From: a virus
Length of the DNA: 44,217 nucleotides
Direction: 5' to 3' (one strand)
IMG/VR virus record: IMGVR_UViG_3300032288_002862
Coordinates: 1-44,217 of that record
In this document: piece by piece, positions 25,041-44,217 of the stretch
How positions within the stretch are numbered: the first letter of the stretch is position 1
Layout: each line of letters starts with the position of its first letter
The notes under the pieces: generated by a model
Databases searched by the model: none
Seen by the model: the letters and a program-made list of their open reading frames with translations, nothing else
What the model was told of the DNA's origin: nothing
Made by a program: the position numbers and the translations under genes

Positions 25041-28040
25041 TTAGGCGCCAGGAAACGCTGCACCAGTTGGAAGAACGTTGAAGTCCAATACAATGAACTC
25101 AGCGGTCTTTGTTGGTTGTAGATAGATCTGTCCGTATAGGATGTTTCTGTCTACAATGTCTGGTGTGTTGTTCGTGTCATCCATAACAACCTTGAAGGCG
25201 TATAGACCAGAGCGTTGTTGAACGCTGTCCAAGTATGGATTGACGATGTTCAAGAAGCGTTGGCGTGTCGAAGCGACGTTTTGTTCGAACACCAAGTATC
25301 TTGAAGAAGAAGCGATGAACTTCTTCAAAGCGATCAACAGACGACGAACGTTGATACGATCCAGAGCGGAAGGCTGACGTTGTAATGTCTTTTGACCCCA
25401 TGCTACGATACCTTGGCCAGGGAATGCTGCGATTGGATTTACCTTACCTTCGTACAGCGTGTCACGTTCTTGATGTGTCAAGCGATCCATCACTTGTACT
25501 GCGGCTGGGATACCACCACGGTTTAGACCTGCTGGAGCGAACCATTCTGCCGCGACTTGGTCGTTAGCAGCGAATACGCTCATCATGACAACCGAAGGAG
25601 GAACAGGTATTACTCTGTTACTATTGGTGTCAACGATCTTTACCCAAGGATAGTAAGTAGCGGAATAGTTTGTATCAAACTGTGCCGCAAGCGATACTAC
25701 GTTTTGAATAGCAGCCGCTCCAGCTGTTTGATTTGGAGCGATGTCCATGATGTAGAAGGCGTCACCACGGTTTTCACATACTTCTTGTGTCAATGACACG
25801 ACGTATGGGTTATACTGGTAGTTGATACCAGGAGTTGTGATGAGGTTGAAGTCAAACTCGTCGGCGTTGCTTAGAGCTGCCAGAGCTTGTCTATATCCGT
25901 ATGAACCAGCCGTTGTGTTGGTTGAGCAATTCAAACCTTGTTGGTTGGTTGGAATAATGTCGTTTCCAACCAAGATAGGAACGGATGGTGATTGACCATC
26001 AAATCCAGCTTGGAATCCAAGAACGAAACGACGTTTCTTTACATTGGTAGCTTCTTGTGAAGATACATACAATGGAGACAATCCGCAATTATCTTCCAAG
26101 CTAAATTCAACGTTGAGACCAACGTCTGCTCCAACTGGAACCGGTGCGAAGTATTGTCTATTGTCTAGTTCGGCGCCTTCTGCCGTACCCATTGGGTATA
26201 GAGCCTTCAGTTCAGCGTCAGCGGTTGCTGGAGCGGGTTGGAAGGTGATACCAGATGCGTAACGACCAGGCTGTGCCGAGTAGATAGACGCACTGCAATA
26301 TTGCAGTGCTGGAATCTTACCTAAGCGGGCATAATCTCCACCGATTGGAGTAGCGTATGCTCCGAATCCGAACGGAATAGAATCTGTTGGATATGGGGCG
26401 GTTGCCATTTCAATGCGGATATACTTGCTGACGTTGTTATAGTCACCAAACGATAGAATCTTACCGTTATAATCGATATATCCATAAACATCACCGATAC
26501 GACGAGCGACAAAGTTTGCGCTGTTTGGATCTAGATTCAAGTTATCGAAACGTTCCAAGTAGTTTGGTTTTGCGTCTGTGTCGGAGAAGGCACGAACTGC
26601 AAGTGTGAATGTACCATACTTGCTGCCTGGGATTGATCCAGCGGACTTGACGTTGCTGACTTCAATCTTGTAAGCGGTGTTCATGTTTGTACCGTCAGAC
26701 AATGTATGAACCTTGAATAGGTCATAAGTTGCTGGAGAAGGATCTCCAACCGAACCACTGAATGGAGCCACTTTTTGTGATTTGATCCATGTGGTTTCTG
26801 CCTGACGTAGAGCGAAGACAGAATCACCAACGTCTGGCGTTACTCCGTCGTCAAAATCCATAGCATTACGTGTAGTAATTTGAATCTTCCAACTACCGGA
26901 TGTTACGATTTCACTCACGATTTCAGCTGCTCTGCTGTCGAAGTTTTTGTAAGTATAAGCAGCTTCAATTTTTTGACCAGCGGCTACAGGTACAAATCCA
27001 GCGTATGGATCTTTACCAAACACCGATGTAATATATGAACTTGCTTCTGGATCAATTGAGAATTCATATGTTCCATAAGATGAAGAGACATATACTCCGA
27101 GGTCTGTATCAAAATATGATTGAGTAAGTCCTAGTCTAAAATCGGTTCCGACTACGGATGGATCCTTTGCAGCCAATACGGATCCACTAAAACCATATAG
27201 ATTTTGTCCGGTGTCATACGCCGTGTTTGCTAGAACAGCTAGAACAACTTCGTCACGGCCTGGGGCCAACGAGGCGGTTCCACAACCGTCTTCTTCAGAT
27301 ACTGTGTCTGCTGACCAACTACTAACATCAAAACTACCGTATTTACCAGTAATTTTTCCGTTTAGATAGTATGTGTATCCACAAGTTCCGACTGGTCCCT
27401 GCCATATAGATCCAGAGAATACTAACGCGTCAGCTGGGTCGTGTGGTAACAATGAATTAGACAACGATGCTGTAAAACTTCCTGTTTGAGTGTACCAAGC
27501 AGATCCAGTGACGTTGTTGATTGTTGTTTGAACTGTTCCGACGTTCTGTGTAGAACCAGAATATTCTCCACTGGTAAATGTGACGTTCAAAGAGCTTGTC
27601 AACATCCATCCGCTATAAGTTCCTGGAGATCCAGAACCACTGACAACAGCTTTTGCTGTTGTTCCAGTCAACGATCCGCTTTCTGTGAAGCGTTCATATT
27701 CACCTGGAATAGCGCTAATGATGAGTGCTTGTTTTTGTTCGTATCCGGTCAAACCACCCACGCGGCAGATGGTCACTTGACCTTGCTGACGAATGTATTG
27801 TTGAGCCGTATAAGGTCCATAAAGGACGCCATCTGGATCACCAAAGATACTGGTGAGGTCAGCCTCGCTTGTTACTACCGTAGGTGAAAAGCCAGGTCCC
27901 TTTGGGAATGGAGCAACGACGACGCCGCCGATTGCTGCTACTCCCTGTGCGAGGAACGACTGGTCAATTTCACGGGTGAAAACGCCTGGGCTGACGATGC
28001 GCTCACTTGGTTGGAATGTACCGTTTTGTTCTAATGCCAT
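25041..28040 (-). CDS. Tail sheath protein (T4 gp18 type), enlarged
   Basis: 999 residues; T4 gp18 has 659. The N-terminus has the sheath opening IVSPGVFTREIDQSFLAQ, then GGVVVAPFPKGP and YGPYTAQQYIRQQGQVTICRV. The C-terminal ~350 residues carry the conserved core: RGGIPAAVQVMDRLTHQERD, YEGKVNPIAAFPGQGIVAWG, LDRINVRRLLIALKKF, and QIYLQPTKTAEFIVLDFNV at the end. The middle ~100-640 is longer than usual, Gly/Ser/Thr-rich and beta-like; it probably forms extra domains on the outside of the sheath. The protein forms the contractile outer tail. A strong AGGAG site precedes the ATG, a TATTTATA box lies upstream and a terminator follows, all fitting high expression. Confidence 0.92.
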   Translation of the reverse strand: MALEQNGTFQPSERIVSPGVFTREIDQSFLAQGVAAIGGVVVAPFPKGPGFSPTVVTSEADLTSIFGDPDGVLYGPYTAQQYIRQQGQVTICRVGGLTGYEQKQALIISAIPGEYERFTESGSLTGTTAKAVVSGSGSPGTYSGWMLTSSLNVTFTSGEYSGSTQNVGTVQTTINNVTGSAWYTQTGSFTASLSNSLLPHDPADALVFSGSIWQGPVGTCGYTYYLNGKITGKYGSFDVSSWSADTVSEEDGCGTASLAPGRDEVVLAVLANTAYDTGQNLYGFSGSVLAAKDPSVVGTDFRLGLTQSYFDTDLGVYVSSSYGTYEFSIDPEASSYITSVFGKDPYAGFVPVAAGQKIEAAYTYKNFDSRAAEIVSEIVTSGSWKIQITTRNAMDFDDGVTPDVGDSVFALRQAETTWIKSQKVAPFSGSVGDPSPATYDLFKVHTLSDGTNMNTAYKIEVSNVKSAGSIPGSKYGTFTLAVRAFSDTDAKPNYLERFDNLNLDPNSANFVARRIGDVYGYIDYNGKILSFGDYNNVSKYIRIEMATAPYPTDSIPFGFGAYATPIGGDYARLGKIPALQYCSASIYSAQPGRYASGITFQPAPATADAELKALYPMGTAEGAELDNRQYFAPVPVGADVGLNVEFSLEDNCGLSPLYVSSQEATNVKKRRFVLGFQAGFDGQSPSVPILVGNDIIPTNQQGLNCSTNTTAGSYGYRQALAALSNADEFDFNLITTPGINYQYNPYVVSLTQEVCENRGDAFYIMDIAPNQTAGAAAIQNVVSLAAQFDTNYSATYYPWVKIVDTNSNRVIPVPPSVVMMSVFAANDQVAAEWFAPAGLNRGGIPAAVQVMDRLTHQERDTLYEGKVNPIAAFPGQGIVAWGQKTLQRQPSALDRINVRRLLIALKKFIASSSRYLVFEQNVASTRQRFLNIVNPYLDSVQQRSGLYAFKVVMDDTNNTPDIVDRNILYGQIYLQPTKTAEFIVLDFNVLPTGAAFPGA

Positions 28041-28477: not shown

Positions 28478-29260
28478 TTAAGCGAGTTTAGCAACTTGAT
28501 TTGTAACCAGCCCTATTGTTTGGGGAGGGGTGTTTAGGGAAGGAGGAATACCAAGCACAACGTTGTTTTCTTTTTCAAATTTCAAAGCGGAAGCATAATA
28601 ATCATGCCACAGCTCGCTAACCACAGGATTTTCATGTGCTTTATATTCCATGTTTTGAGGAAATGGGTGCCATGGTTGTGTAGACATTTTGGTATAATGA
28701 ACCAATCGAGTCTTTTCCGAATCATATCCCTTACCATCTAAGCAATTATAAATTTCGTCTAATTTTCCGATGCCGTCGTTTTGTTCAACCATTACACGAT
28801 ATCCTTTTTGCTGCTTTCCGCTTGGCTTCATCGTTGAAATTTTTGGCCACCAATCTACGTTAAATTTTTCTGCGTCCATCAACATAACATCTGTTCTTTC
28901 GTTTTTAATGGTTAGAACCATCTTACCGTTCATTGGAAGTTCCCACATTTGTTTAATATCCTTGGTAACAATTTCGTCTACTTCTAAATAAATTCCTCTA
29001 CCTTTAAACCCACATAGTTCTGGAACACACCATCTAAAAGCAGAAAAATTTGTTTTCCAACCTTCTCCAGACGCCTGTTTTCTATGATCTCTCTTTTTGT
29101 TCCAGCCGTCCCATAAACTATTCGGATATACGTCGGTCATCCAGTTTATTTCGACTGGAGCTGTTGATGTATTTATTATGCTCCAATGAAGAGCTTTTTC
29201 TGCTTTTTGATTTCCCGGTTCGCTTCCGATAAATATTTTGATTCGGTTTTCTGTGTTCAT
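28478..29260 (-). CDS. Glycosyltransferase-like protein (GT-A, family 8 type)
   Basis: 260 residues. It begins with a Rossmann-like strand (RIKIFIGSEPGNQKA) and has TNFSAFRWCVPELCGFKGRGI followed by YLEVDEIV. E93-V-D95 stands where the metal-binding D-x-D of GT-A enzymes is expected, and the F-S-x-F-R-W-x-x-P-E pattern before it is typical of family 8-like transferases that use nucleotide sugars. DVMLMDAEKF at ~124-133 could be the acceptor-side loop. The C-terminal ~60 residues include a conserved-looking HYTKMSTQPWHPF segment. The two genes upstream in the same operon are an FkbM-like and another glycosyltransferase-like gene, and the fibres follow. I infer sugar transfer to a virion protein or to a host surface component. 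Confidence 0.6.
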   Translation of the reverse strand: MNTENRIKIFIGSEPGNQKAEKALHWSIINTSTAPVEINWMTDVYPNSLWDGWNKKRDHRKQASGEGWKTNFSAFRWCVPELCGFKGRGIYLEVDEIVTKDIKQMWELPMNGKMVLTIKNERTDVMLMDAEKFNVDWWPKISTMKPSGKQQKGYRVMVEQNDGIGKLDEIYNCLDGKGYDSEKTRLVHYTKMSTQPWHPFPQNMEYKAHENPVVSELWHDYYASALKFEKENNVVLGIPPSLNTPPQTIGLVTNQVAKLA

Positions 29261-31156: not shown

Positions 31157-31726
31157 TTAGCCACCAGACGGTGGTGTATCCGACGCCGTTCCTGAAGGAG
31201 ACGGCGACTCAGAGAATGTAGGTGAATCAGAGAATGTAGGAGACTCGGACATTGTTGGCGACTCGGACATTGTTGGCGACTCGGACATTGTTGGAGACTC
31301 AGACGGAGAATTAGACACCGTTGGAGACTCAGACGGAGAATTAGACACCGTTGGAGACTCAGACGGAGAATTAGACACCGTTGGAGACGCAGACGGAGAC
31401 GAAGAAGGTGAAGGTGATGCTACTGTCGGAGATGATGTTGGAGATGTAGTTGGAGAATCAGAATATGTAGCAGAATCGGAAAACGTGGGAGATTCGGATA
31501 CGCTATCAACAAAATTGATATCTTTAAAAATTTCTCTTAAATCTTGTCCATTTTTTGTGAACTTGGTTATGATTGGAGACCATTGAGTTGGATTTATAGC
31601 TGGTTCGTATCTATCAGAAAGATCTTGTGTATTAACTTTAAAATTTACGTTGGCAGTGGCCGACGAAGTTCTTGGCTTGAAGATGTTATCTAAATCTGTG
31701 GCTCCTACTTTAAAACCGCTTGGCAT
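31157..31726 (-). CDS. Mucin-like Ser/Thr/Pro repeat protein
   Basis: 189 residues. The first ~75 residues contain two related units, ATDLDNIFKPR and GQDLREIFKD, with a DLSDRYEP copy between them; they probably form a small virion-anchoring domain. From ~76 to the end the chain is almost only Ser, Thr, Pro, Glu, Asp and Ala. It includes three copies of SPTVSNSPSE and three of SPTMSE, followed by SPTFSDSPTFSESPSPSG. Such sequences are extended and are typical O-glycosylation substrates. AAGGA lies 8 nt before the ATG at 31726. It sits between the giant fibre gene (5 nt upstream) and the glycosyltransferase cassette, which suggests it could be modified by that cassette. Confidence 0.7.
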   Translation of the reverse strand: MPSGFKVGATDLDNIFKPRTSSATANVNFKVNTQDLSDRYEPAINPTQWSPIITKFTKNGQDLREIFKDINFVDSVSESPTFSDSATYSDSPTTSPTSSPTVASPSPSSSPSASPTVSNSPSESPTVSNSPSESPTVSNSPSESPTMSESPTMSESPTMSESPTFSDSPTFSESPSPSGTASDTPPSGG

Positions 31727-31731
31727 ATAAT

Positions 31732-34700
31732 TTATCCTTTGATATTAGAATTGTTTTTCAACTCTTCAATTTCTTTCTTTAAAGATTTGATAGCGTTCAA
31801 TAGAATTGGGAAAAGTTTATCGTATGAAATCGTGTTGTATGTTATACCATCGGGTGATGTAGAAGGCTGTTGAACCATAGCGAATGGCCATGCCGCCCCA
31901 ACTTCTTGAGCGATAAGACCTGTATCAATCACGTTATGCTTCTTTGCCATATATTCATCCATCTTCAACACTTCATCATTCCATCTAAATGTGTATCCGT
32001 CAAGATTATTAATGACTTCCCAAACTTTTTGTTCTGGAATTGTTATAACATCTTTCTTTAACCTTGCGTCAGAATATGTCGATGTTATTGTACCAGTTGC
32101 GACAATGTTGCCAGTGACGTGAATTACTTCAGCCGGGCCTGTATTACCAAATCCTATCTTACCAGCTGTTTCAAACATTACGGCACTGTTGATTACGTTG
32201 GTTGCCGAACTAAATTTAGCGATATACCCAGACGTGCCAGAGTTAGCCACCGATGTACCAGACGATCCAGAAGATCCAGAAGATCCACTAGTTCCGCTTG
32301 TGCCCGAAGAACCACTCGTTCCAGACGATCCAGAAGTGCCTCTTGTTCCAGATGTGCCAGACGTACCATTTGTGCCCGATGTACCACTGGTTCCAGATGT
32401 TCCACTACTTCCGCTGGTTCCGTTTGTACCAGAAGTACCATTTGTACCGCTTGTACCACTGCTTCCACTTGTTCCACTACTACCGCTTGTTCCACTACTT
32501 CCGCTTGTTCCACTACTACCAGATGTTCCAGAAGTTCCGCTTGAACCTGAGGTTCCTGAGCTTCCAGACGTACCTCTTGTACCACTGGTTCCGTTAGTTC
32601 CAGAAGTACCGTTGGTTCCAGATGTTCCAGAGGTACCAGATGTACCAGAGCTTCCTGAAGTACCATTAGTTCCCGACGTACCATTGGTCCCAGATGTTCC
32701 AGAACTTCCTGAAGAACCACTTGTTCCAGAAGATCCAGACGTTCCGCTTGTTCCAGAAGAGCCAGATGTACCGGACGTACCACTGCTTCCACTGGTTCCT
32801 GAGCTTCCAGATGTACCTCTTGTACCACTGGTTCCGTTAGTTCCTGACGTACCGTTAGTGCCAGAAGTTCCGCTAGTTCCGCTTGACCCTGATGTTCCAG
32901 AAGATCCGCTTGTACCATTAGTACCTGATGTTCCATTAGTTCCAGATGTTCCCGACGAACCAGAAGTTCCAGAAGTTCCACTACTTCCACTTGTGCCTGA
33001 CGACCCAGAAGTTCCAGATGTTCCCGACGAACCAGAAGTTCCACTGCTTCCACTTGTACCAGAAGTTCCTCTGGTTCCTGATGTACCGTTCGTACCCGAA
33101 GTTCCGGATGTTCCGTTAGTACCACTTGTTCCAGACGTTCCACTCGAACCGCTTGATCCTGATGTCCCAGAAGATCCACTTGTTCCAGAAGTTCCGTTTG
33201 TACCCGAAGTTCCTGAACTACCACTGGATCCACTTGATCCTGAAGTACCACTACTTCCACTTGTTCCAGAGCTTCCAGACGTTCCTCTTGTGCCTGAAGT
33301 ACCATTTGTACCAGATGTTCCCGATGTTCCGTTTGTTCCTGAAGTACCACTGGTTCCGCTTGAACCATTTGTACCAGATGTTCCACTTGTACCATTAGTT
33401 CCACTGGTTCCATTTGTTCCAGAAGTTCCTGATGTACCGCTTGAACCGCTTGTTCCACTTGAACCAGATGAACCACTTGTTCCATTAGTTCCCGATGTAC
33501 CAGAAGTTCCGTTTGTACCAGATGTTCCGCTGCTTCCGCTCGTTCCTGAACTACCAGATGTTCCACTCGAACCGCTTGTTCCAGAAGATCCGTTTGTTCC
33601 TGAAGTACCGGATGTTCCGTTTGTTCCCGAAGTGCCACTGCTACCACTTGTTCCTGAGCTACCGCTTGTTCCGCTTGAACCTGACGTACCAGAAGATCCA
33701 TTTGTTCCACTTGTACCGCTTGTACCAGAGCTGCCACTGGTTCCAGAGCTTCCAGATGTTCCTCTTGTACCGGACGTACCATTTGTGCCGCTTGTTCCAT
33801 TCGTACCAGAAGTTCCTGATGTTCCGTTGGTGCCGCTTGTACCACTGGTTCCAGAAGTTCCGTTTGTGCCAGACGATCCACTCGTTCCATTTGTTCCTGA
33901 GGTTCCGCTAGTACCGTTAGTACCGCTTGTGCCAGATGTTCCAGAAGATCCACTAGTTCCCGATGAGCCGCTCGTGCCGCTGCTTCCGCTTGTGCCACTT
34001 GATCCATTGGTTCCACTTGTTCCATTTGTACCTGATGTACCGCTTGTGCCAGAAGATCCACTAGTTCCAGACGTTCCGTTTGTGCCTGAAGTACCGTTTG
34101 TTCCACTGGTTCCGTTTGTACCCGAAGTTCCAGATGTACCACTGCTTCCGCTTGAGCCTGAAGTTCCACTAGAACCGCTTGTACCATTGGTACCCGAAGT
34201 TCCACTTGTTCCAGAAGAACCTGATGTACCACTTGTACCGCTACTTCCGCTTGTTCCTGAAGTTCCTCTTGTTCCTGATGTGCCGTTGGTACCTGAAGTT
34301 CCGTTTGTTCCAGAAGTTCCACTGGTTCCATTTGTACCACTAGTGCCACTAGAACCGCTTGTTCCTGATGACCCTCCGGTTCCAGAAGTTCCATTTGTTC
34401 CACTTGTACCATTGGTTCCTGATGTTCCACTACTTCCACTTGTTCCAGAGGAACCTGATGTGCCGCTTGAACCATTTGTTCCGCTGGTACCATTCGTACC
34501 AGAAGTTCCACTGGAACCACTTGAACCACTTGTTCCCGAACTTCCATTAGTTCCACTGGTTCCTGATGTGCCATTTGTTCCAGAAGTCCCAGATGTACCA
34601 CTGCTTCCAGATGTTCCTGAAGTTCCACTAGAACCGCTTGTGCCGTTAGTTCCGCTGGAACCGTTTGTGCCTGAAGTCCCATTTGTGCCTGAGGTTCCAC

Positions 34701-37700
34701 TGGTTCCTGAAGAACCGCTTGTACCAGACGATCCGCTGGTTCCCGAAGTACCGTTTGTGCCACTAGTGCCGGAGGTACCACTTGTACCAGACGATCCAGA
34801 TGTACCGCTTGTTCCTGATGAACCTGAAGTACCACTGCTTCCAGAAGTTCCTCTGGTTCCTGATGTGCCATTTGTTCCTGAAGTTCCGTTAGTACCAGAA
34901 GTTCCGCTTGTACCATTTGTGCCTGATGTTCCACTACTTCCACTTGTACCGCTGCTACCATTGGTTCCAGACGTTCCGTTTGTACCTGATGTTCCACTTG
35001 TTCCGCTCGTACCGCTTGAACCTGAAGTACCACTGGTTCCAGACGATCCATTTGTGCCTGAAGTTCCAGAGGTTCCATTTGTACCTGACGTTCCACTTGT
35101 ACCGCTAGATCCGCTTGTGCCACTACTTCCACTTGTTCCAGATGTACCATTGGTTCCACTTGTACCCGAAGAACCGCTGGTTCCAGATGTTCCACTACTT
35201 CCAGAGCTTCCTGATGTACCTCTAGTACCGGAGGTACCGTTGGTTCCGCTAGTGCCATTTGTTCCCGACGTTCCACTTGTTCCGTTTGAACCCGATGTAC
35301 CACTAGTTCCGTTTGTACCGCTTGTTCCTGAACTTCCAGAAGTTCCAGATGATCCAGACGTACCACTGGTTCCATTTGTTCCTGATGTACCATTAGTACC
35401 GCTTGTGCCGGATGTTCCACTTGAACCTGAAGTTCCTGATGAACCGTTTGTGCCACTGGTTCCATTTGTTCCTGATGTACCATTCGTACCAGACGTTCCG
35501 CTTGTGCCACTTGACCCAGACGTACCACTACTTCCGCTTGAGCCCGAAGTACCGCTTGTGCCGCTTGAACCAGATGTTCCTGAAGTACCACTACTTCCGC
35601 TGGTCCCAGAGCTTCCAGATGTTCCTCTTGTTCCAGAAGTGCCATTTGTACCGGATGTACCGCTGGTTCCGTTTGTACCAGATGATCCAGAAGTGCCATT
35701 TGTTCCAGAAGTACCATTTGTACCTGAAGTTCCAGAAGTACCATTTGTACCTGATGTGCCGCTTGTTCCGTTGGTTCCCGATGTACCGGAAGTACCATTA
35801 GTACCGCTAGTTCCAGATGTGCCAGACGATCCGCTTGTGCCACTAGAACCTGAAGTTCCATTGGTGCCCGATGTACCACTTGTTCCGTTAGTTCCTGATG
35901 TACCGCTTGATCCGGACGATCCAGAGCTTCCAGACGTTCCGCTGGATCCTGATGTACCGCTTGAACCGTTTGTACCAGATGTGCCGGAGGTTCCATTTGT
36001 GCCACTTGTTCCGCTTGTGCCACTACTTCCACTGGTTCCGCTTGAACCAGAAGTTCCACTACTTCCATTTGTTCCTGATGTACCGCTGGTTCCATTTGAG
36101 CCAGATGTTCCACTTGAACCGGACGTACCAGACGTACCAGACGAACCGCTTGTTCCAGAAGTACCTCTTGTTCCTGATGTACCATTTGTGCCGGAAGTTC
36201 CATTGGTGCCAGAAGTACCATTTGTACCACTTGTGCCAGAAGTACCATTTGTTCCTGATGTACCGTTCGCACCTGAAGTACCACTGGTTCCATTCGTACC
36301 AGAAGTTCCACTTGATCCGTTTGTTCCTGAGGTTCCAGATGTGCCAGAAGAGCCGCTTGTTCCACTTGACCCATTTGTTCCGCTGGTACCTGAAGTACCG
36401 GAGGTTCCGCTACTACCACTTGTTCCTGAAGTACCATTTGTACCAGAGGTTCCATTGGTGCCAGATGTACCAGAGCTGCCTGAAGTTCCACTTGAACCAG
36501 ATGTTCCAGAAGATCCATTAGTTCCAGATGTACCAGATGAACCACTACTTCCACTGCTTCCGCTTGTACCAGATGTACCAGAAGATCCAGACGGTCCACT
36601 GCTTCCACTTGTTCCTGAGCTTCCAGAAGTTCCTCTTGTACCAGACGTACCATTTGTACCTGATGTTCCACTGGTTCCGTTTGTACCTGAAGTGCCATTC
36701 GTTCCGGAGGTGCCAGAACTTCCCGAAGTTCCACTTGTTCCATTAGTACCACTTGTACCAGATGTACCACTCGAACCGTTAGTGCCGCTCGTTCCATTTG
36801 TGCCAGATGTGCCACTTGTACCAGAACTGCCAGACGTACCACTTGATCCAGAAGTTCCGCTTGAACCATTTATTCCTGATGTGCCATTAGTGCCTGAAGT
36901 TCCTGATGTGCCATTGGTTCCACTCGTTCCTGAAGTTCCACTGTTGCCACTGGTTCCACTTGAACCATTTGTACCTGATGTACCGCTTGTTCCAGAGCTT
37001 CCACTCGCCCCGCTCGAACCAGAAGTTCCTGACGAACCATTTGTTCCGCTTGTACCTGAAGTTCCACTACTACCAGAAGTACCGCTTGAACCATTTGTAC
37101 CAGATGTTCCATTGGTTCCACTTGTGCCAGAAGTTCCACTACTACCGCTTGTTCCACTTGAACCATTTGTTCCCGATGTGCCATTCGTACCAGATGTACC
37201 AGAGGTTCCGCTGCTTCCATTCGTACCCGAAGTACCATTTGTACCCGACGTTCCGGACGTTCCACTACTACCACTTGTTCCGGACGTTCCATTGGTACCT
37301 GATGTACCATTTGTTCCAGAAGTTCCACTGGTTCCATTTGTACCTGAGGTGCCGTTTGTACCGTTAGACCCGCTCGTACCACTACTACCACTTGTACCTG
37401 AAGAACCATGTGACCCACTTGTGCCAGAAGTACCATTGGTTCCAGATGTTCCGTTTGTTCCTGACGTACCGTTTGTACCACTAGTTCCATTGGTACCTGA
37501 AGTGCCACTGGTGCCATTTGTTCCTGATGTGCCGGATGTACCTGAAGTACCACTAGATCCACTTGTTCCGTTAGTTCCACTGGTTCCGTTTGTGCCGCTT
37601 GTGCCACTGCTTCCACTGGTTCCGCTTGTGGTGGATGCTCCAGATAATAAATTTGTACCAACACCAGCAGCACAGGCAGTTAGGTCAATATACGCACCTC

Positions 37701-40662
37701 GGGCAGTTCCTCCCTGTTCAAAGAATCTCAGTTTGTTTTGATAACTATCAACCGTTATACCTGTTCCAACAAGCGTGGTATTAGTTTGCGCCTTTGCTAA
37801 CAATATTTCGCCACCTTCGTCCCCAGCCGAATAATTGACTGCGAGAGTCGATCCATTGAATGTAAGTTCTGCTGAGGCGGTTATTGCATTGGATGCATTT
37901 CTATAAATAATTTGGTTGGCGCTTCCTCCTATGATCGGACTTGTACCCGAAGTACCAGAGCTTCCGTTCGTACCAGAAGTGCCATTGGTACCTGAAGTGC
38001 CGTTCGTACCTGACGTACCATTAGTTCCACTCGTGCCACTCGTCCCAGAGCTTCCGCTTGTTCCAGAAGAACCACTTGTCCCGGAAGTACCATTTGTACC
38101 GCTTGTCCCAGAAGTGCCCGAAGATCCACTTGTCCCAGATGTTCCAGATGTTCCAGAAGTACCAGAAGTGCCATTTGTTCCAGACGTACCATTTGAACCG
38201 CTTGTGCCATTTGTACCACTTGTTCCTGACGATCCATTTGTTCCAGATGTTCCGCTAGTTCCAGAGGAACCATTCGTACCAGAAGTGCCACTGGTTCCAT
38301 TAGTTCCTGATGTGCCGCTTGTACCAGATGTTCCACTACTACCAGAGGTACCGCTCGAACCATTAATACCACTGGTTCCGCTTGTACCAGAGCTTCCAGA
38401 TGTACCGCTTGATCCAGACGTGCCACTAGTTCCGCTTGTTCCAGAAGTTCCACTACTCCCACTGGTTCCATTGGTGCCTGACGTACCGCTTGTACCAGAA
38501 CCTCCAGAAGTTCCACTAGAACCAGATGTTCCTGATGAACCACTTGTACCAGAACTCCCATTTGTTCCAGAGGTTCCAGAGGTTCCGCTTGTCCCAGAAT
38601 AACTTAAAGCATACGAAGCGGTTACAGCATAACTTGATGTAGCATTTATGATACTATTAACACTTAAACTTCCGGTCAATATTATAGAACCAGTAACTAA
38701 CAAAGATCCTGTTAATTCGATAGTATCAGCATTGGTAAAAAATGTTGTAGAACCACTATCTCCGACAAAATTAGTAGATCCTGTAACAACTAAGGATCCA
38801 GAAATTACAACATTTTGATTAAGTTGATTTACATAACTTGAAGACAACGGAGTAGTTCCGCTTGTTCCACTTGTTCCACTTGAACCGCTTGAACCATTTG
38901 TTCCACTAGTACCATTTGTGCCGCTCGTACCATTTGTTCCTGACGTACCATTGCTACCAGAAGTTCCGCTTGAACCAGAAGTACCAGAACTGCCACTTGA
39001 TCCACTTGTGCCATTTGTTCCACTCGTTCCAGAACTTCCACTGATGCCAGATGTTCCGCTTGATCCACTGGTTCCATTTGTGCCACTACTTCCACTGGTA
39101 CCTGACGAACCGCTTGTGCCTGATACACCATCTGTTCCTGATGTGCCCGAAGTTCCATTTGTGCCACTTGAACCTGAAGTACCACTACTTCCGCTGGTCC
39201 CAGATGAACCTGACGACCCACTCATACCGTCTGTTCCTGAAGTTCCGCTTGTGCCTGAACTACCAGATGTTCCACTCAAACCGCTTGTTCCAGATGTTCC
39301 ATCGACGCCTGAAGTACCACTGCTTCCACTTATACCAGATGTTCCACTGGTTCCAGAGGAACCTGATGTTCCTGAAGATCCGCTGGTTCCATCTGTGCCA
39401 GATGTGCCCGAGATTCCCGAAGTTCCGCTAGAACCACTGGTTCCGTTATTTCCACTTGTTCCGCTACTACCAGAATTACCGCTGGATCCGCTTGTACCAG
39501 ATGTTCCACTACTACCACTTGTGCCATCAGTTCCGCTTGTACCAGACGACCCAGAATTTCCACTTGTGCCAGACGTTCCAGATGTTCCATTGGTACCAGA
39601 TGTGCCATTTGTTCCACTTGTGCCATCGGTGCCACTGGTACCGTCTGTTCCCGAAGAACCAGATGTTCCAGAACTTCCAGAAGTTCCGTCTATACCAGAC
39701 GTTCCATTTATACCGCTTGTGCCGCTTGTGCCTGATTCTCCAGACGTTCCGCTTGATCCACTTGTACCGTTGGTGCCGTCAGTACCTGATGTACCATCTG
39801 TTCCGTTTGTGCCATTAACACCACTAGTACCACTTGAACCGCTTGTACCAGAAGTTCCAGATGTTCCACTTATACCAGAAGTTCCAGATGTTCCATTAGT
39901 ACCAGATGTTCCATTAGTACCAGATGTACCATCTGTTCCGCTTGTACCATCGGAACCACTGGTTCCACTGGTTCCGTTTATTCCCGAGGTTCCGTTTGTT
40001 CCTGAAGAACCAGATGTTCCAGAACTTCCAGAAGTTCCGTTTGTTCCAGACGTTCCACTTATACCGCTTGTGCCACTAGTACCATCTGTTCCGTCTAAAC
40101 CACTAGTACCGTCGGTACCAGAAGTTCCATTTGTACCACTAGTACCGCTCGTTCCAGAAGTACCGTCTATTCCAGACGTTCCGCTTGTTCCACTCGTACC
40201 ATTTGTACCCGAAGTTCCATTCGTACCACTTGTACCGTTTATTCCAGATGTTCCGTCCGTACCGCTTAAACCGCTGGTTCCAGAAGTACCGCTGGTTCCG
40301 CTTTCTCCGTTTGTACCACTTGTTCCACTGGTACCATTAGTTCCTGACGTTCCGTCTATACCACTTGTTCCACTGGTACCATTTGTACCAGATGTACCAC
40401 TGGTTCCAGAAATACCGCTAGTTCCCGAAGTTCCGCCTGTGCCACTGGTTCCAGATGTTGCTCCAGTTAATGCGTATGAAGCGGTCAACGCATATGAAGA
40501 AGATGCTGCCTGTAAAGAATATGAAGATGTCTCAGAAGAACCTATTAAATAAGAAGCTGTTAAAGCGTATGATGAAGTATTAGAAAACCCAGAGTTAATA
40601 GAATATGATGAAGATTCTACACTTTTCGCGGTTACATTGAGAGATCTTAAAATTATCGACAT
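31732..40662 (-). CDS. Giant Gly-X-Y tail fibre with C-terminal S74 chaperone
   Basis: 2976 residues. The N-terminal ~68 residues are Ser/Ala/Tyr-rich with SSYALTASYA units. Three stop-free Gly-X-Y blocks follow (~70-604, ~689-908, ~1012-2804). Two beta-rich fibre modules separate them: one with SGSLVVTGS and LTGSLLVTGSIILTGSLS units, and one with ANQIIYRNASNAITASAELTF. X is mostly Thr or Ser and Y mostly Ser or Asn; I count one Pro in the repeats. The C-terminus is a Peptidase_S74 intramolecular chaperone with the cleavage motif SDARLKK; Ser2864 is the predicted cleavage point, releasing 113 residues that end in a coiled coil. S74 domains drive trimerisation of phage fibres. A trimeric, collagen-like or polyglycine-II stalk is inferred. 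Confidence 0.85.
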   Translation of the reverse strand: MSIILRSLNVTAKSVESSSYSINSGFSNTSSYALTASYLIGSSETSSYSLQAASSSYALTASYALTGATSGTSGTGGTSGTSGISGTSGTSGTNGTSGTSGIDGTSGTNGTSGTSGTNGESGTSGTSGTSGLSGTDGTSGINGTSGTNGTSGTNGTSGTSGTSGIDGTSGTSGTSGTNGTSGTDGTSGLDGTDGTSGTSGISGTSGTNGTSGSSGTSGSSGTNGTSGINGTSGTSGSDGTSGTDGTSGTNGTSGTNGTSGTSGISGTSGTSGTSGSSGTSGVNGTNGTDGTSGTDGTNGTSGSSGTSGESGTSGTSGINGTSGIDGTSGSSGTSGSSGTDGTSGTDGTSGTNGTSGTNGTSGTSGTSGNSGSSGTSGTDGTSGSSGTSGTSGSSGNSGSSGTSGNNGTSGSSGTSGISGTSGTDGTSGSSGTSGSSGTSGTSGISGSSGTSGVDGTSGTSGLSGTSGSSGTSGTSGTDGMSGSSGSSGTSGSSGTSGSSGTNGTSGTSGTDGVSGTSGSSGTSGSSGTNGTSGSSGTSGISGSSGTSGTNGTSGSSGSSGTSGSSGTSGSNGTSGTNGTSGTNGTSGTNGSSGSSGTSGTSGTTPLSSSYVNQLNQNVVISGSLVVTGSTNFVGDSGSTTFFTNADTIELTGSLLVTGSIILTGSLSVNSIINATSSYAVTASYALSYSGTSGTSGTSGTNGSSGTSGSSGTSGSSGTSGGSGTSGTSGTNGTSGSSGTSGTSGTSGTSGSSGTSGSSGTSGTSGINGSSGTSGSSGTSGTSGTSGTNGTSGTSGTNGSSGTSGTSGTNGSSGTSGTNGTSGSNGTSGTNGTSGTSGTSGTSGTSGSSGTSGTSGTNGTSGTSGSSGTSGSSGTSGTSGTNGTSGTNGTSGTNGTSGTNGSSGTSGTSPIIGGSANQIIYRNASNAITASAELTFNGSTLAVNYSAGDEGGEILLAKAQTNTTLVGTGITVDSYQNKLRFFEQGGTARGAYIDLTACAAGVGTNLLSGASTTSGTSGSSGTSGTNGTSGTNGTSGSSGTSGTSGTSGTNGTSGTSGTNGTSGTNGTSGTNGTSGTNGTSGTSGSHGSSGTSGSSGTSGSNGTNGTSGTNGTSGTSGTNGTSGTNGTSGTSGSSGTSGTSGTNGTSGTNGSSGTSGTSGTNGTSGTNGSSGTSGSSGTSGTSGTNGTSGTNGSSGTSGSSGTSGTSGTNGSSGTSGSSGASGSSGTSGTSGTNGSSGTSGNSGTSGTSGTNGTSGTSGTNGTSGINGSSGTSGSSGTSGSSGTSGTSGTNGTSGTNGSSGTSGTSGTNGTSGTSGSSGTSGTNGTSGTNGTSGTSGTNGTSGTRGTSGSSGTSGSSGPSGSSGTSGTSGSSGSSGSSGTSGTNGSSGTSGSSGTSGSSGTSGTNGTSGTNGTSGTSGSSGTSGTSGTSGTNGSSGTSGSSGTSGTSGTNGSSGTSGTNGTSGTSGANGTSGTNGTSGTSGTNGTSGTNGTSGTNGTSGTRGTSGTSGSSGTSGTSGSSGTSGSNGTSGTSGTNGSSGTSGSSGTSGSSGTSGTSGTNGTSGTSGTNGSSGTSGSSGTSGSSGSSGSSGTSGTNGTSGTSGTNGTSGSSGTSGSSGTSGTSGTNGTSGTSGTNGTSGTSGTNGTSGTSGTNGTSGTNGTSGSSGTNGTSGTSGTNGTSGTRGTSGSSGTSGSSGTSGTSGSSGTSGTSGSSGSSGTSGSSGTSGTSGTNGTSGTNGTSGTNGSSGTSGSSGTSGTSGTNGTSGTNGTSGTSGSSGTSGSSGTSGTNGTSGTSGSNGTSGTSGTNGTSGTNGTSGTRGTSGSSGSSGTSGTSGSSGTSGTNGTSGTSGSSGTSGSSGTSGTSGTNGTSGTSGTNGSSGTSGTSGSSGTSGTSGTSGTNGTSGTNGSSGTSGSSGTSGTNGTSGTSGTNGTSGTNGTSGTRGTSGSSGTSGSSGTSGTSGSSGTSGTSGTSGTNGTSGTSGSSGTSGSSGTSGTSGTNGTSGTNGSSGTNGTSGSSGTSGTSGSSGTSGTSGTNGTSGTSGTNGSSGTSGSSGSSGTSGTNGTSGTNGSSGTSGSSGTSGSSGTSGTNGTSGTNGTSGTGGSSGTSGSSGTSGTNGTSGTSGTNGTSGTNGTSGTRGTSGTSGSSGTSGTSGSSGTSGTSGTNGTSGSSGTSGSSGSSGTSGTSGTNGTSGTNGTSGTNGTSGTSGSSGTSGTSGTNGTSGTNGSSGTSGSSGTSGSSGTSGSSGTSGTSGTNGTSGTSGTNGTSGSSGTNGTSGTSGTSGTNGTSGTSGTNGTSGTNGTSGTRGTSGSSGTSGSSGTSGTSGTNGSSGTSGSSGTSGSSGTSGSSGTSGTNGTSGTSGTNGSSGTSGSSGTSGSSGTSGSSGTSGTNGTSGTSGTNGTSGSSGSSGTSGSSGTSGTSGTNGTSGTNGTSGTSGTNGSSGTSGTSGTNGTSGTSGTNGTSGTRGTSGSSGTSGSSGTSGSSGSSGSSGTSGTNGTSGTSGSSGTSGSSGSSGTSGTSGTNGTSGTSGTNGTSGTRGTSGTSGSSGTSGSSGTSGTSGSSGTSGSSGTSGTSGSSGTSGTNGTSGTNGTSGSSGTSGSSGTSGTSGTNGTSGTNGTSGTRGTSGSSGTSGSSGTSGTSGSSGTSGTSGSSGTSGSSGSSGTSGTNGTSGTNGTSGSSGTSGTSGTSGTNGTSGTNGTSGTRGTSGSSGTSGSSGTSGTSGSSGTSGSSGTSGSSGTSGSSGTSGTNGTSGTNGTSGSSGTSGTSGTSGTNGTSGTSGTRGTSGSSGTSGSSGTSGTSGSSGSSGSSGTSVANSGTSGYIAKFSSATNVINSAVMFETAGKIGFGNTGPAEVIHVTGNIVATGTITSTYSDARLKKDVITIPEQKVWEVINNLDGYTFRWNDEVLKMDEYMAKKHNVIDTGLIAQEVGAAWPFAMVQQPSTSPDGITYNTISYDKLFPILLNAIKSLKKEIEELKNNSNIKG
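32250..37630 (-). repeat. Gly-X-Y block 3 of the giant fibre (~597 triplets)
   Basis: Nine-nucleotide units encoding GTS, GSS and GTN almost only. The only strongly charged residues are 12 arginines, all in GTRGTSG, at about 32343, 32573, 32818, 33069, 33287, 33764, 34264, 34851, 35219, 35622, 36166 and 36633. They mark a longer-order repeat of ~73-84 residues near the C-terminal end and ~120-200 farther in. Codons of each residue vary widely. Confidence 0.9.
37935..38597 (-). repeat. Gly-X-Y block 2 of the giant fibre (~73 triplets)
   Basis: GTS, GSS and GTN triplets with rare GIN and GGS; no charged residues seen. It is bounded by the two beta-rich modules. Confidence 0.9.
38850..40455 (-). 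repeat. Gly-X-Y block 1 of the giant fibre (~178 triplets)
   Basis: The most varied block: besides GTS, GSS and GTN it has many GTD, GID, GIN, GIS, GLS, GVN, GES and GMS triplets. It is therefore acidic, unlike block 3. Confidence 0.9.
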
Positions 40663-41026: not shown

Positions 41027-41992
41027 TCACCACGACATTATAAACACCATTCCAGGTCCGCCGTTGCCTCCGCGACCAGCGGTTTGACCAGTGCCGCCGC
41101 CTCCACCACCACTGCCTATACCACCATTACCACCGTTTCCGCCGTTGTTGTCGTTTGTTCCGCCACCCGCACCACCGCACGATACAAAAGGTGCCCACAG
41201 GTTAACTCCGCTACTTCCATCGCGTACAGTAGAAGTTCCAGCCGCTGCAAGTATACCACCGCCTGCGGCGTTTGGCCAGTTTAAAAAAGTAAAATTTGTG
41301 GCTGTTCCGGGAGCTATACTTCCTCCGTTCGCGGTTCCGCCGGTTGATCCGCCACCACCAGCACCTCCGCTATTCTTAAAAGCATTCCAAACGGTAGAAA
41401 GAGATACGCCGTTACCACCACCAACCGCACCACCTGCTCCTCCTGCCTGACCAACAGTCCCCCTGAATTCACCAAGACGAGTTCCAACATATATCGACGG
41501 TGCTCCTGCTGCCGTACCCGCTGCTCCAACCGCAGCACCTGTTCCTGTACCACCACCTCCAGCTTGTGTACTAGATGACTCAAGTAATACATTTGGCGCA
41601 GTTGTATTTTGAGAATAGCATACATATGCTATGCCGCCGTTTGTACCAGCAACGCCGTTTGTATTGCTGCCTTCACCACCAGAACCCGGTCTAATATACA
41701 ATATATCTGGTAAAAAAAATGATGGCATGAGTAATGTAGCTACTCCACCAGACCCGCCACCTCCACCCCCGCCACCGTCATCTCCAGCAGGTCGCTGAAA
41801 TCCTTGTCCACCACCACCACCAGCACCTACCGCAAGTATATAAACCATTGTAGATCCTTTTGGTTTATTCCAAACTTTCCAATTTACTGAAGCTAAATCA
41901 TCATCTACTGCTCCAACAAATGTATATACTTCGCAATTTGATGGATATGGCAAATCTTGTAAATCACTTTGTTGTAATGGATAATTGAACAT
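41027..41992 (-). CDS. Glycine-rich adhesin-like tail protein (copy 2)
   Basis: 321 residues. A short N-terminal domain (to ~50, with WKVWNKPKGSTMVYILAVGA) is followed by many runs of glycine (up to eight in a row) separated by variable hydrophobic or polar loops, ending in GGPGMVFIMSW. Glycine-rich motifs of this kind form polyglycine-II bundles in receptor-binding adhesins such as gp38 of the Salmonella phage S16. The variable loops between the runs would contact the host receptor. It has the same length as its upstream paralogue and the same W-x-x-W-x-KP-x-G start and S-W end, but quite different loops. Tail-tip adhesin is inferred; the exact family cannot be fixed from sequence alone. Confidence 0.6.
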   Translation of the reverse strand: MFNYPLQQSDLQDLPYPSNCEVYTFVGAVDDDLASVNWKVWNKPKGSTMVYILAVGAGGGGGQGFQRPAGDDGGGGGGGGSGGVATLLMPSFFLPDILYIRPGSGGEGSNTNGVAGTNGGIAYVCYSQNTTAPNVLLESSSTQAGGGGTGTGAAVGAAGTAAGAPSIYVGTRLGEFRGTVGQAGGAGGAVGGGNGVSLSTVWNAFKNSGGAGGGGSTGGTANGGSIAPGTATNFTFLNWPNAAGGGILAAAGTSTVRDGSSGVNLWAPFVSCGGAGGGTNDNNGGNGGNGGIGSGGGGGGTGQTAGRGGNGGPGMVFIMSW

Positions 41993-41995
41993 AAC

Positions 41996-42961
41996 TTACC
42001 AAGAAAAAATAGCAACCAAGCCGTTGCCACCATCACCACCTCTGCCGCCTGTGGTTCCTTTTCCTCCACCACCGCCCCCACATCCTATACCGCCTCTGCC
42101 GCCGTTACCACCAACACCAGCAACGTTGGTACCTCCACCTGCTCCACCGGTTTGAAAAAACGGAGCCATTAGTGATACACCCGCCCCACCGATATTTGCG
42201 GATGTTGTGCCACCTGTTCCACCTGCCGCAAGTGCACCGGCAGTGGTCGGCCAGTTTATGAATACAAAGTTTACGGCGGCGGTAGCAGTTTGTGCGCCTC
42301 CGTTGTTATTTGTACCTGCGGCACCACCGCCACCAGCACCGGGACTTAATGGCAATCCTCCCCATGCCGTAATGCTGGTACCGGTACCACCACCAACGGC
42401 TCCGCCAGCACCACCAACCAATCCAACAGTTGCGGAAAACATACCGATTGACAGGTTTAAAGTAACACCACCATATACAGTAGGAACTGTACCCGCCGCA
42501 CCCACTGCTCCGTTGGTACCAGCACCACCGCCACCCGGTTGGCTGGCTCCATTTGCTGATAATATAGTATTAACACCTGCGGCTGCGGCTACTGGATTTA
42601 AAGATATAGTTGAATTTGTACCTGCTCCACCTGCTACTGTAGCAGCACCGCCCAACCCACCAACTCCAACTTGAACATATAAGCTATCTGGTAATAGAAA
42701 TGTTGGTATGATCAACCTACTTATACCAGAACACGCTCCACCACCTCCACCTCCTCCGTTTGTACCAGACGCAGCACTATGAGCACCACCGCCTCCACCC
42801 CCGCCGCCAATACAAATCATATATGACATGCTTGTTCCACGCGGTTTTGTCCATTGCTGCCAACTTGTAGTAGATAAATTATTTGCGTGAAATATCTGAA
42901 CATCACCTCTAAAATTAGATGGTATGCCAAATGTATCTATTGATGTAGCAGGAAAATTCAT
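41996..42961 (-). CDS. Glycine-rich adhesin-like tail protein (copy 1)
   Basis: 321 residues, the same length as the gene 3 nt downstream. The N-terminal part has STTSWQQWTKPRGTSMSYMI and then GGGGGGG; glycine runs and Ala/Thr/Asn-rich loops follow, ending in GGNGLVAIFSW. The pattern suits a polyglycine-II adhesin. Some loops, such as NTILSANGASQPG and MFSATVGLVGGAGGAVGGG, are partly shared with the paralogue. The ATG at 42961 has no Shine-Dalgarno site but TATAAATA, in the opposite orientation to the other boxes, lies 3 nt upstream (42965-42972). Two copies may give the phage alternative or combined receptor specificity. Confidence 0.6.
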   Translation of the reverse strand: MNFPATSIDTFGIPSNFRGDVQIFHANNLSTTSWQQWTKPRGTSMSYMICIGGGGGGGGAHSAASGTNGGGGGGGACSGISRLIIPTFLLPDSLYVQVGVGGLGGAATVAGGAGTNSTISLNPVAAAAGVNTILSANGASQPGGGGAGTNGAVGAAGTVPTVYGGVTLNLSIGMFSATVGLVGGAGGAVGGGTGTSITAWGGLPLSPGAGGGGAAGTNNNGGAQTATAAVNFVFINWPTTAGALAAGGTGGTTSANIGGAGVSLMAPFFQTGGAGGGTNVAGVGGNGGRGGIGCGGGGGGKGTTGGRGGDGGNGLVAIFSW

Positions 42962-43467: not shown

Positions 43468-44217
43468 TCAAATCATTCTGCTTTGGTATGCTATAATAAC
43501 TCCGAGATTTGTAGCACTTCCCCCGCCGCTTGTGCCTGAAGTTCCATTTGTACCAGATGTACCGTTTGTACCAGATGTGCCTGATGTACCATTTGTGCCA
43601 GATGTGCCTGACGTACCATTTGTACCACTCGTTCCTGACGTACCATTTGTGCCAGATGTGCCGCTTGTACCCGAGGTTCCACTTCCACCTCCTCCAGCAC
43701 CGCTTAATGCATAACTAGCGGTTATTGCATATGAAGAAGATCCAAACAATGAACCTGTTATTCCAGTAGTAACCTTTAATGATCCAGTTACAAAAACACT
43801 TCCGCTGATGTCAAGTTCGGTGGTTGGATCTGTTTTTCTGATACCTATTCTACTTCCTCCTGTAATAACAACCATGTCTTGGAAGTCAGTGGCAGAACCG
43901 CCGCGATTTACAAATAATTTTAACTGACCTCCCCAGTCACCTGGGTTTAATCCTGTGCTGGTAGTATCATATAAACCAGAAATACCAGCATATCTCCAAG
44001 TTGGAGTGCCTGCTATATGTACACTTAATGGATCATAACCACTGAAAGTAATCTTTCCTCCTGTACCCGTGTTAACATTATAGTTGTGGAGGTTGAGCAT
44101 GTCTGCATCCGAATTACTTGATGTATATAACGTGGCAACAACTCCTGGTCTTACTGATGTTTGATCTTTTCCAACAACTATATATTGTCCGCTATCATAT
44201 AGTGCGTCTCCGGCCTG
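43468..44217 (-). CDS. Tail fibre protein, N-terminus beyond window, short Gly-X-Y stalk
   Basis: 249 codons are visible and the frame stays open to the right edge, so the start lies outside; the ATG at 44100 is internal. The visible N-terminal part has QYIVVGKDQTSVRPGVVATL and a fold with DWGGQLKLFVNRGG and SRIGIRKTDPTTELDISGSV, like the trimeric beta modules that usually precede chaperone or stalk regions in phage fibres. It is followed by SSSYAITASYALSG, a glycine linker, 17 Gly-X-Y triplets and the end GGGSATNLGVIIAYQSRMI. No S74 domain follows, unlike the giant fibre. It shares the SYAxTASYA module and the stalk with the giant protein, so the two probably exchanged sequence. Confidence 0.75.
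   Translation of the reverse strand, partial: QAGDALYDSGQYIVVGKDQTSVRPGVVATLYTSSNSDADMLNLHNYNVNTGTGGKITFSGYDPLSVHIAGTPTWRYAGISGLYDTTSTGLNPGDWGGQLKLFVNRGGSATDFQDMVVITGGSRIGIRKTDPTTELDISGSVFVTGSLKVTTGITGSLFGSSSYAITASYALSGAGGGGSGTSGTSGTSGTNGTSGTSGTNGTSGTSGTNGTSGTSGTNGTSGTNGTSGTSGGGSATNLGVIIAYQSRMI
43525..43686 (-). repeat. Short Gly-X-Y repeat in the edge fibre gene (17 triplets)
   Basis: Only GTS and GTN triplets, with GTS-GTS-GTN repeated four times, bounded by glycine-rich linkers on both sides. It is the same repeat class as in the giant fibre, much shorter and more regular. Confidence 0.85.

Follow-up and report, generated by a model that had tools for sequence, protein, structure and literature searches.

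A giant, nearly proline-free Gly-X-Y fibre gene with an S74 chaperone domain in a contractile-tailed phage

The stretch of viral DNA analysed here (44,217 nucleotides; hereafter the window) encodes a giant fibre protein that, on balance, we take to be a long trimeric stalk, nucleated by an S74 domain and held in an extended threefold helix, and a member of a class of proline-free Gly-X-Y fibres that is widespread among phages. Observed directly were the Gly-X-Y tracts, the chaperone and its active-site pair, the existence and positional code of the class and the place of the gene in a tail cluster, and from these we infer the zipping of the trimer, the type of helix, the extended length, the attachment point and the purpose of the fibre.

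Results

The fibre ORF (31732..40662, minus strand) begins with ATG, encodes 2976 aa and was assigned from Pfam Collagen, Pfam Peptidase_S74 and PHROG matches, the last comprising 25 families of which the majority are tail fibre. From the N terminus, the product contains a segment of SSYALTASYAL repeats presumed to be the virion attachment end (aa 1–70, 40453..40662), Gly-X-Y tract 1 with 178 triplets (aa 71–604, 38851..40452), a Ser/Thr/Gly-rich insert 1 of the ISGSLVVTGS type (aa 605–689, 38596..38850), tract 2 with 73 triplets (aa 690–908, 37939..38595), insert 2 (aa 909–1013, 37624..37938), tract 3 with 597 uninterrupted triplets (aa 1014–2804, 32251..37623), a 59-aa tip separating tract 3 from the S74 serine (32074..32250) and an S74 intramolecular chaperone (aa 2864–2976, 31735..32073), all on the minus strand; the N-terminal segment, the inserts and the tip were delimited by their sequence. 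Each of the three tracts is unbroken and keeps strict Gly phase. The initial annotation had described about 850 strict-phase triplets with mostly Thr or Ser in X, mostly Ser or Asn in Y and one Pro, and these figures were right, 848 triplets being counted. As a refinement, two small inserts split the stalk and the longest run is 597.

Thr was found 629 times in X and once in Y. The remaining X positions included Ser (188) and Ile (14), and Y was occupied by Ser (655), Asn (159), Asp (18) and Arg (12). One Pro is present in the 848 triplets, whereas a Pro content like that of the other proteins of the window (4.3%) would give about 73; charge is nearly absent from the tracts and their hydrophobic content is low. 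All triplets with Asp in Y and most of those with Ile, Leu or Val in X fall in tract 1, and each of the 12 GTR triplets of tract 3 is flanked by GTS. A strict hexapeptide periodicity was rejected, since the alternation of GTS is short-range only (lag-1 autocorrelation about -0.5, lost by lag 5). The antisense of the tracts is open over a very long distance (window 32189-37741, plus strand, 1850 aa).

The ORF matched Pfam Collagen (PF01391) with 1070 bits, a score driven by the Gly phase alone: Gly stands at every third residue (848/848), whereas the substantial Pro or Hyp of that family (in bacterial and phage proteins generally at X) and its Thr in Y are lacking. Matches to Scl/Lcl adhesins in NCBIfam and to collagens in the PDB were likewise due to Gly phase only and were rejected as evidence of homology; the PDB search with the repeat returned collagens and other proline-containing Gly-X-Y proteins and no proline-free relative. 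In tblastn searches, inserts 1 and 2 had no match in phage records, and the N-terminal and repeat part had none in cultured phages, the low-complexity filter being partly responsible in both cases.

The metagenomic origin of the contig and the low complexity of the region could suggest that an artefact of assembly or sequencing inflated a short repeat. However, the longest exact DNA repeat within the ORF is 37 nt, well under read length, so that short-read assembly could traverse the gene; neither a stop nor a frame slip occurs across 8.9 kb; and the same fibre type is found in independent contigs, with up to 940 triplets. We therefore regard such an artefact as exceedingly improbable. Every one of the 848 Gly codons begins with GG, but the third base varies (A in 413, T in 304, C in 108 and G in 23; pairwise difference 0.62), indicating that selection, and not just recent duplication, maintains Gly. 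Exact repeat pairs of 30 nt numbered 30 in the gene and 0.45 in synonymous shuffles, and this excess indicates that duplication accounts for at least part of the growth of the tracts. The protein pattern has been retained, although most synonymous sites have become scrambled since then: blocks aligned on GTR shared 91% of their residues and, at matching residues, 39% of their codons, close to the 33% codon identity of random in-phase pairs. Given the shortness of the exact repeats and the scrambled codons, collapse or expansion of the repeat during assembly is unlikely.

At the C terminus, aa 2864–2927 matched Pfam Peptidase_S74 (2.2e-10, 41.1 bits against a curated cut-off of 22). Ser2864 and Lys2869 form an S-x(4)-K pair, and the surrounding S-D-x-x-L-K motif was invariant in 42 sequences; this pair is the catalytic Ser-Lys dyad of phage and MyRF ICA domains (PMC3742443). 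A structural model of the domain, built with relatives, reached pLDDT of about 70–94 over the domain, and its fold matched the MyRF ICA (7dc3, E 1.5e-6) and the K1F chaperone (3gw6, E 7e-3). Pfam, dyad and fold agree with the S74 domain that had been noted at this end, confirming that the fibre terminates in an intramolecular chaperone with an intact Ser-Lys dyad and a matching fold. The domains of K1F endosialidase and MyRF have in common with it the five-residue spacing of the dyad, the fold and the C-terminal position, although the K1F domain matures a beta-helical tailspike whereas that of the window caps a Gly-X-Y stalk. By analogy with the S74 family, the domain would be expected to trimerise and cut itself off. 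With merely 59 residues left beyond the last triplet after the predicted self-cleavage, the mature fibre would be almost all stalk.

The window carries a contractile-tail gene set over its 44 kb, with a tail sheath, a tube, a baseplate hub and a probable tape measure. The 999-aa sheath (25041..28040, minus strand; PHROG tail sheath, 3e-74) marks a contractile-tailed phage, and the closest sheath of a cultured phage is that of Microcystis phage Mel-JY01 (45% over 77%). Most cultured phages match this sheath over its last ~300 residues only, the remainder being large and lineage-specific. The probable tape measure (8853..12842, minus strand, 1329 aa) is homologous to a 1348-aa protein of the Mel-JY01 tail cluster (E 2e-30), and by these shared sheath and tape measure genes the window belongs to a Mel-JY01-like contractile-tailed phage. 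At 0.15 nm per tape-measure residue, the tail would be near 200 nm long, in line with the length first estimated from the same gene. Searches of viral contigs returned no relatives of this tape measure and none of two downstream genes.

The fibre gene lies just upstream of the sheath, alongside glycine-rich tail proteins. Upstream of it, two glycine-rich tail proteins of 321 aa (41027..42961, minus strand) matched Gly_rich_2 and tail fibre assembly/minor tail PHROGs, and a second fibre-like gene, of which the truncated contig retains the C-terminal part (43468..44217, minus strand), has a 19-triplet GTS/GTN tract of the same kind at 43519-43575. Directly downstream is a Ser/Pro-rich repeat protein (SPSESPTVSN; 31157..31726, minus strand), whose gene contains a nearly perfect 30-bp tandem repeat (98%). 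A methyltransferase-like gene is also among the neighbours, as is a Glycosyltransferase-8-like protein (28478..29260, minus strand; Pfam GT8 2e-4, slightly below the cut-off) that matches an annotated phage glycosyltransferase and is a candidate modifier of the fibre or of the host surface.

Relatives of the fibre were collected in two ways. We defined the class by a Pro content below 0.05 per triplet, by Thr in X and Ser, Asn or Asp in Y, and by the GTS-GTR-GTS motif, all of which the window fibre shows. A scan of IMG/VR with a 53-base degenerate pattern encoding GTS-GTN-GTS-GTS-GTN-GTS found 55 stretches, with proline-free tracts of as many as 940 triplets, and whole fibre ORFs were readable in several of these contigs. 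A second sample consisted of loci fetched by tail-sheath similarity alone, without selection on repeats; its 19 loci yielded 35 tracts, 34 of them at ≤0.05 Pro per triplet, and most lay immediately upstream of the sheath. Contigs chosen by pattern or sheath contained about 90–110 distinct proline-free tracts, and by triplet number the window fibre ranked second among the ORFs read. Many environmental phages carry such fibres, which form a widespread class. The two scans rejected uniqueness of the window fibre, the same type being carried by many phage contigs. A simple SD..LK S74 motif was found near the end of 14 of 43 distinct class ORFs with a complete 3' end, so that other ends are common in the class.

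The same 53-base pattern gave one short match in 84,980 bacterial and archaeal species genomes, a 10-triplet tract in a MAG contig in which Thr is common in Y, and a bacterial origin of the fibre type was accordingly rejected. We found no description of proline-free Thr-in-X phage fibres in the open-access literature, and a literature search by repeat letters found no phage paper. Contig G001 (L223) encodes both the 940-triplet proline-free fibre and, nearby, a proline-rich GPI/GPQ collagen-like gene, so that proline is not avoided throughout the genome. Two further features were noted in the collected loci. The host-recognition region of a sheath relative contains tandem paralogous LamG-like proteins (L246:3096-8331, L145:228-5404) with the motif GLVLYLDAANxxSYPGSGTTWxDLSxNGNNGTL, and 0.5 kb upstream of another proline-free fibre lies a putative 2-oxoglutarate dioxygenase-like protein (L245:2510-3139) that has no Pfam match.

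Residue use was counted over 83 distinct proline-free tracts with 12,792 triplets. Gly was on phase in 99.2% of the triplets and Pro totalled 20. Thr was confined largely to X (8804, against 288 in Y), as were Ile (233 against 9), Val (124 against 6) and Glu (62 against 10), while Y held nearly all Asn (2940, against 26 in X) and Asp (582 against 12) and most Arg (88 against 25); Lys was rare. GTS flanked 66 of 84 Arg-in-Y triplets on both sides, compared with a background of 20%, and this context spans 18 loci from different phages with AGA and CGN codons alike. The code of the class is thus Thr, Ser, Ile or Val in X and Ser, Asn or Asp in Y, with rare Arg mostly in Y within GTS-GTR-GTS. In proline-containing phage tracts of the same collection, among the matches listed, Pro occupied 56% of X and Thr 60% of Y, with Thr 88 times in X and 2347 times in Y; among these matches, the proline-free code is the reverse of that of proline-containing phage collagens. 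Tracts of at least 100 triplets made up 42 of 111 proline-free and 2 of 127 proline-containing tracts among the matches listed, a contrast that is indicative only, since the sets were fetched by different patterns and many loci are cut.

These positional regularities set the class apart from ordinary collagen, and they argue for an ordered, position-sensitive structure and not a mere flexible linker. An unfolded hydrophilic tether or brush, comparable to Gly-Ser linkers, would have a long contour and a small real span; the composition of the tracts is that of a flexible linker with little hydrophobic content, and single-chain prediction gave no fold. Such a linker, however, needs neither Gly at exact third positions across 597 triplets nor the confinement of Thr to X and of Asn and Asp to Y across unrelated phages, and the Arg residues are kept in one context, all of which makes a tether unlikely.

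A cultured phage also has a fibre of this type. In Mel-JY01 (PP395634.1), a proline-free-type Gly-X-Y fibre is located at the very start of the record, and its reading frame appears to continue from the record's other end. Like the window fibre, it has GTS/GSS/GTR tracts and the GTS-GTR-GTS motif, and it comes from the cultured phage closest by sheath; unlike it, it has about 192 triplets in the record-start part, 13 Pro and different ends. In the record it is the antisense strand that is annotated here, as a hypothetical protein rich in Val and Pro (WWT39287.1; 739-2298, minus strand). Wrong-strand annotation of this kind may have hidden the class, and databases may hold further false proteins read from the antisense of GTS/GTN tracts.

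Several of the fibres have genes for sugar enzymes nearby, which raises the possibility of a rope densely covered with sugars and perhaps sulfated: phage glycosyltransferases would modify Thr and Ser of the stalk, and the sugars, instead of proline, would make it stiff and stable. In the window, the GT8-like gene follows the fibre gene at a distance of about 2.5 kb, a GT4/GT9 enzyme is encoded near the Mel-JY01 fibre, and in contig G005 a cassette with GT8, GT9, a GlcNAc-transferase (PF11397), a sulfotransferase and APS kinase brackets a 659-triplet proline-free fibre (L236:15349-19629, L237:9536-17540). The stalks of BclA are known to carry sugars (PMC8968730). Nevertheless, sugar-enzyme families were only about twofold more frequent near fibres than far from them (about 90 proteins each), with G005 dominating, and this enrichment was rejected as weak; sugar genes are common in T4-like host-recognition islands, where they are read as host-surface modifiers (PMC7029224), and recombinant EPclA collagen, which is however rich in Pro, needs no sugars on its Thr to be stable (PMC3368898). 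We consider such a rope quite unlikely; glycosylation is possible either as a rival or as an addition to the helical stalk.

A strict three-residue period is compatible with a 3-1 helix but with none of the common beta folds. Helices of this period could also pack side by side. The adhesin gp38 of Salmonella phage S16 is reportedly of the polyglycine-II type, with a compact packed domain, and repeats of this kind, as in gp38 or the snow flea antifreeze protein, would not form a long rod. Gly at each third residue and the lack of proline suit such packing, and a known phage adhesin is reported to use a polyglycine-II domain (cited in PMC11869133). The gp38 adhesin resembles the window fibre in being Gly-rich and proline-poor, and is not known to have a long unbroken Gly-X-Y tract. 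There is very little chance, in our view, that the tracts are packed in this way, because the 597 triplets have no break to house turns between packed helices, and because a trimerisation domain at the C terminus suggests a rod of three chains.

Discussion

The favoured reading is that a contractile-tailed phage builds from this protein a very long homotrimeric stalk associated with its tail. In this architecture, three chains would be gathered at the C terminus by the S74 domain, and the Gly-X-Y tracts would zip from there in the N-terminal direction into an extended helix of the threefold, collagen-like (3-1) type, after which S74 would cut itself off and the 59-residue tip would stay. The stalk could then carry the tip, and any sugars on Thr or Ser, hundreds of nanometres out, for example to reach through thick surface polysaccharide. 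At 0.286 nm per residue, tract 3 would measure about 512 nm and the 848 triplets would sum to about 728 nm, if fully extended. A rigid stalk of 730 nm is a possibility only, because a triple helix is not demonstrable from sequence and residue use is reversed relative to Pro-containing collagens. By collagen host-guest rules, Thr in X and Ser or Asn in Y are poor triple-helix formers, and either a different threefold arrangement, glycosylation, a host living at low temperature or the great length of the tracts must make up for this. In collagen, Arg in Y ranks with the residues that stabilise the helix most, and the sparse Arg of the tracts might serve as clamps. AlphaFold2, run on a single 249-aa repeat chain only, gave pLDDT 28.

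Phage collagens with Pro in X are already known, and the proline-free Thr-in-X class is apparently undescribed. The E. coli prophage collagen proteins EPclA-D, in which the longest collagen domain has 322 aa, Pro fills about half of the X positions and charged residues are common (PMC3368898), share with the window fibre a Gly-X-Y stalk in a phage tail-fibre-like protein and a trimerisation domain. They differ from it in that the window fibre has a single Pro among its 848 triplets, hardly any charge and an uninterrupted tract of 1791 aa; the expectation that a phage tail-associated fibre here far exceeds the E. coli phage collagen domains in length was thus upheld. Pro-containing GPT/GPS collagens of environmental contigs and of Prochlorococcus phage P-SSM2 are also Gly-X-Y phage fibres, and among the matches listed the window type is unlike them in its Thr in X and its much greater length. 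We entertain, tentatively and with more doubt than confidence, a stronger joint proposal: that phages evolved a second kind of Gly-X-Y rod with its own code, beta-branched Thr in X, Ser, Asn or Asp in Y and spaced GTS-GTR-GTS clamps, which would be stable without proline or hydroxyproline and form stalks of 0.5–0.8 micrometres, several tail lengths long.

Pro or Hyp in X and Y, or else charged triplets, usually account for the stability of collagen. Both are missing from this widespread natural class, which keeps Gly nearly perfectly and has Thr in the opposite slot. With fragments of the repeat that can be expressed, the class makes it directly testable how a threefold Gly-X-Y rod might otherwise be held together. 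If the stalks are extended, some phages would possess fibres that far exceed their tails, which bears on how such phages meet hosts with thick mucilage.
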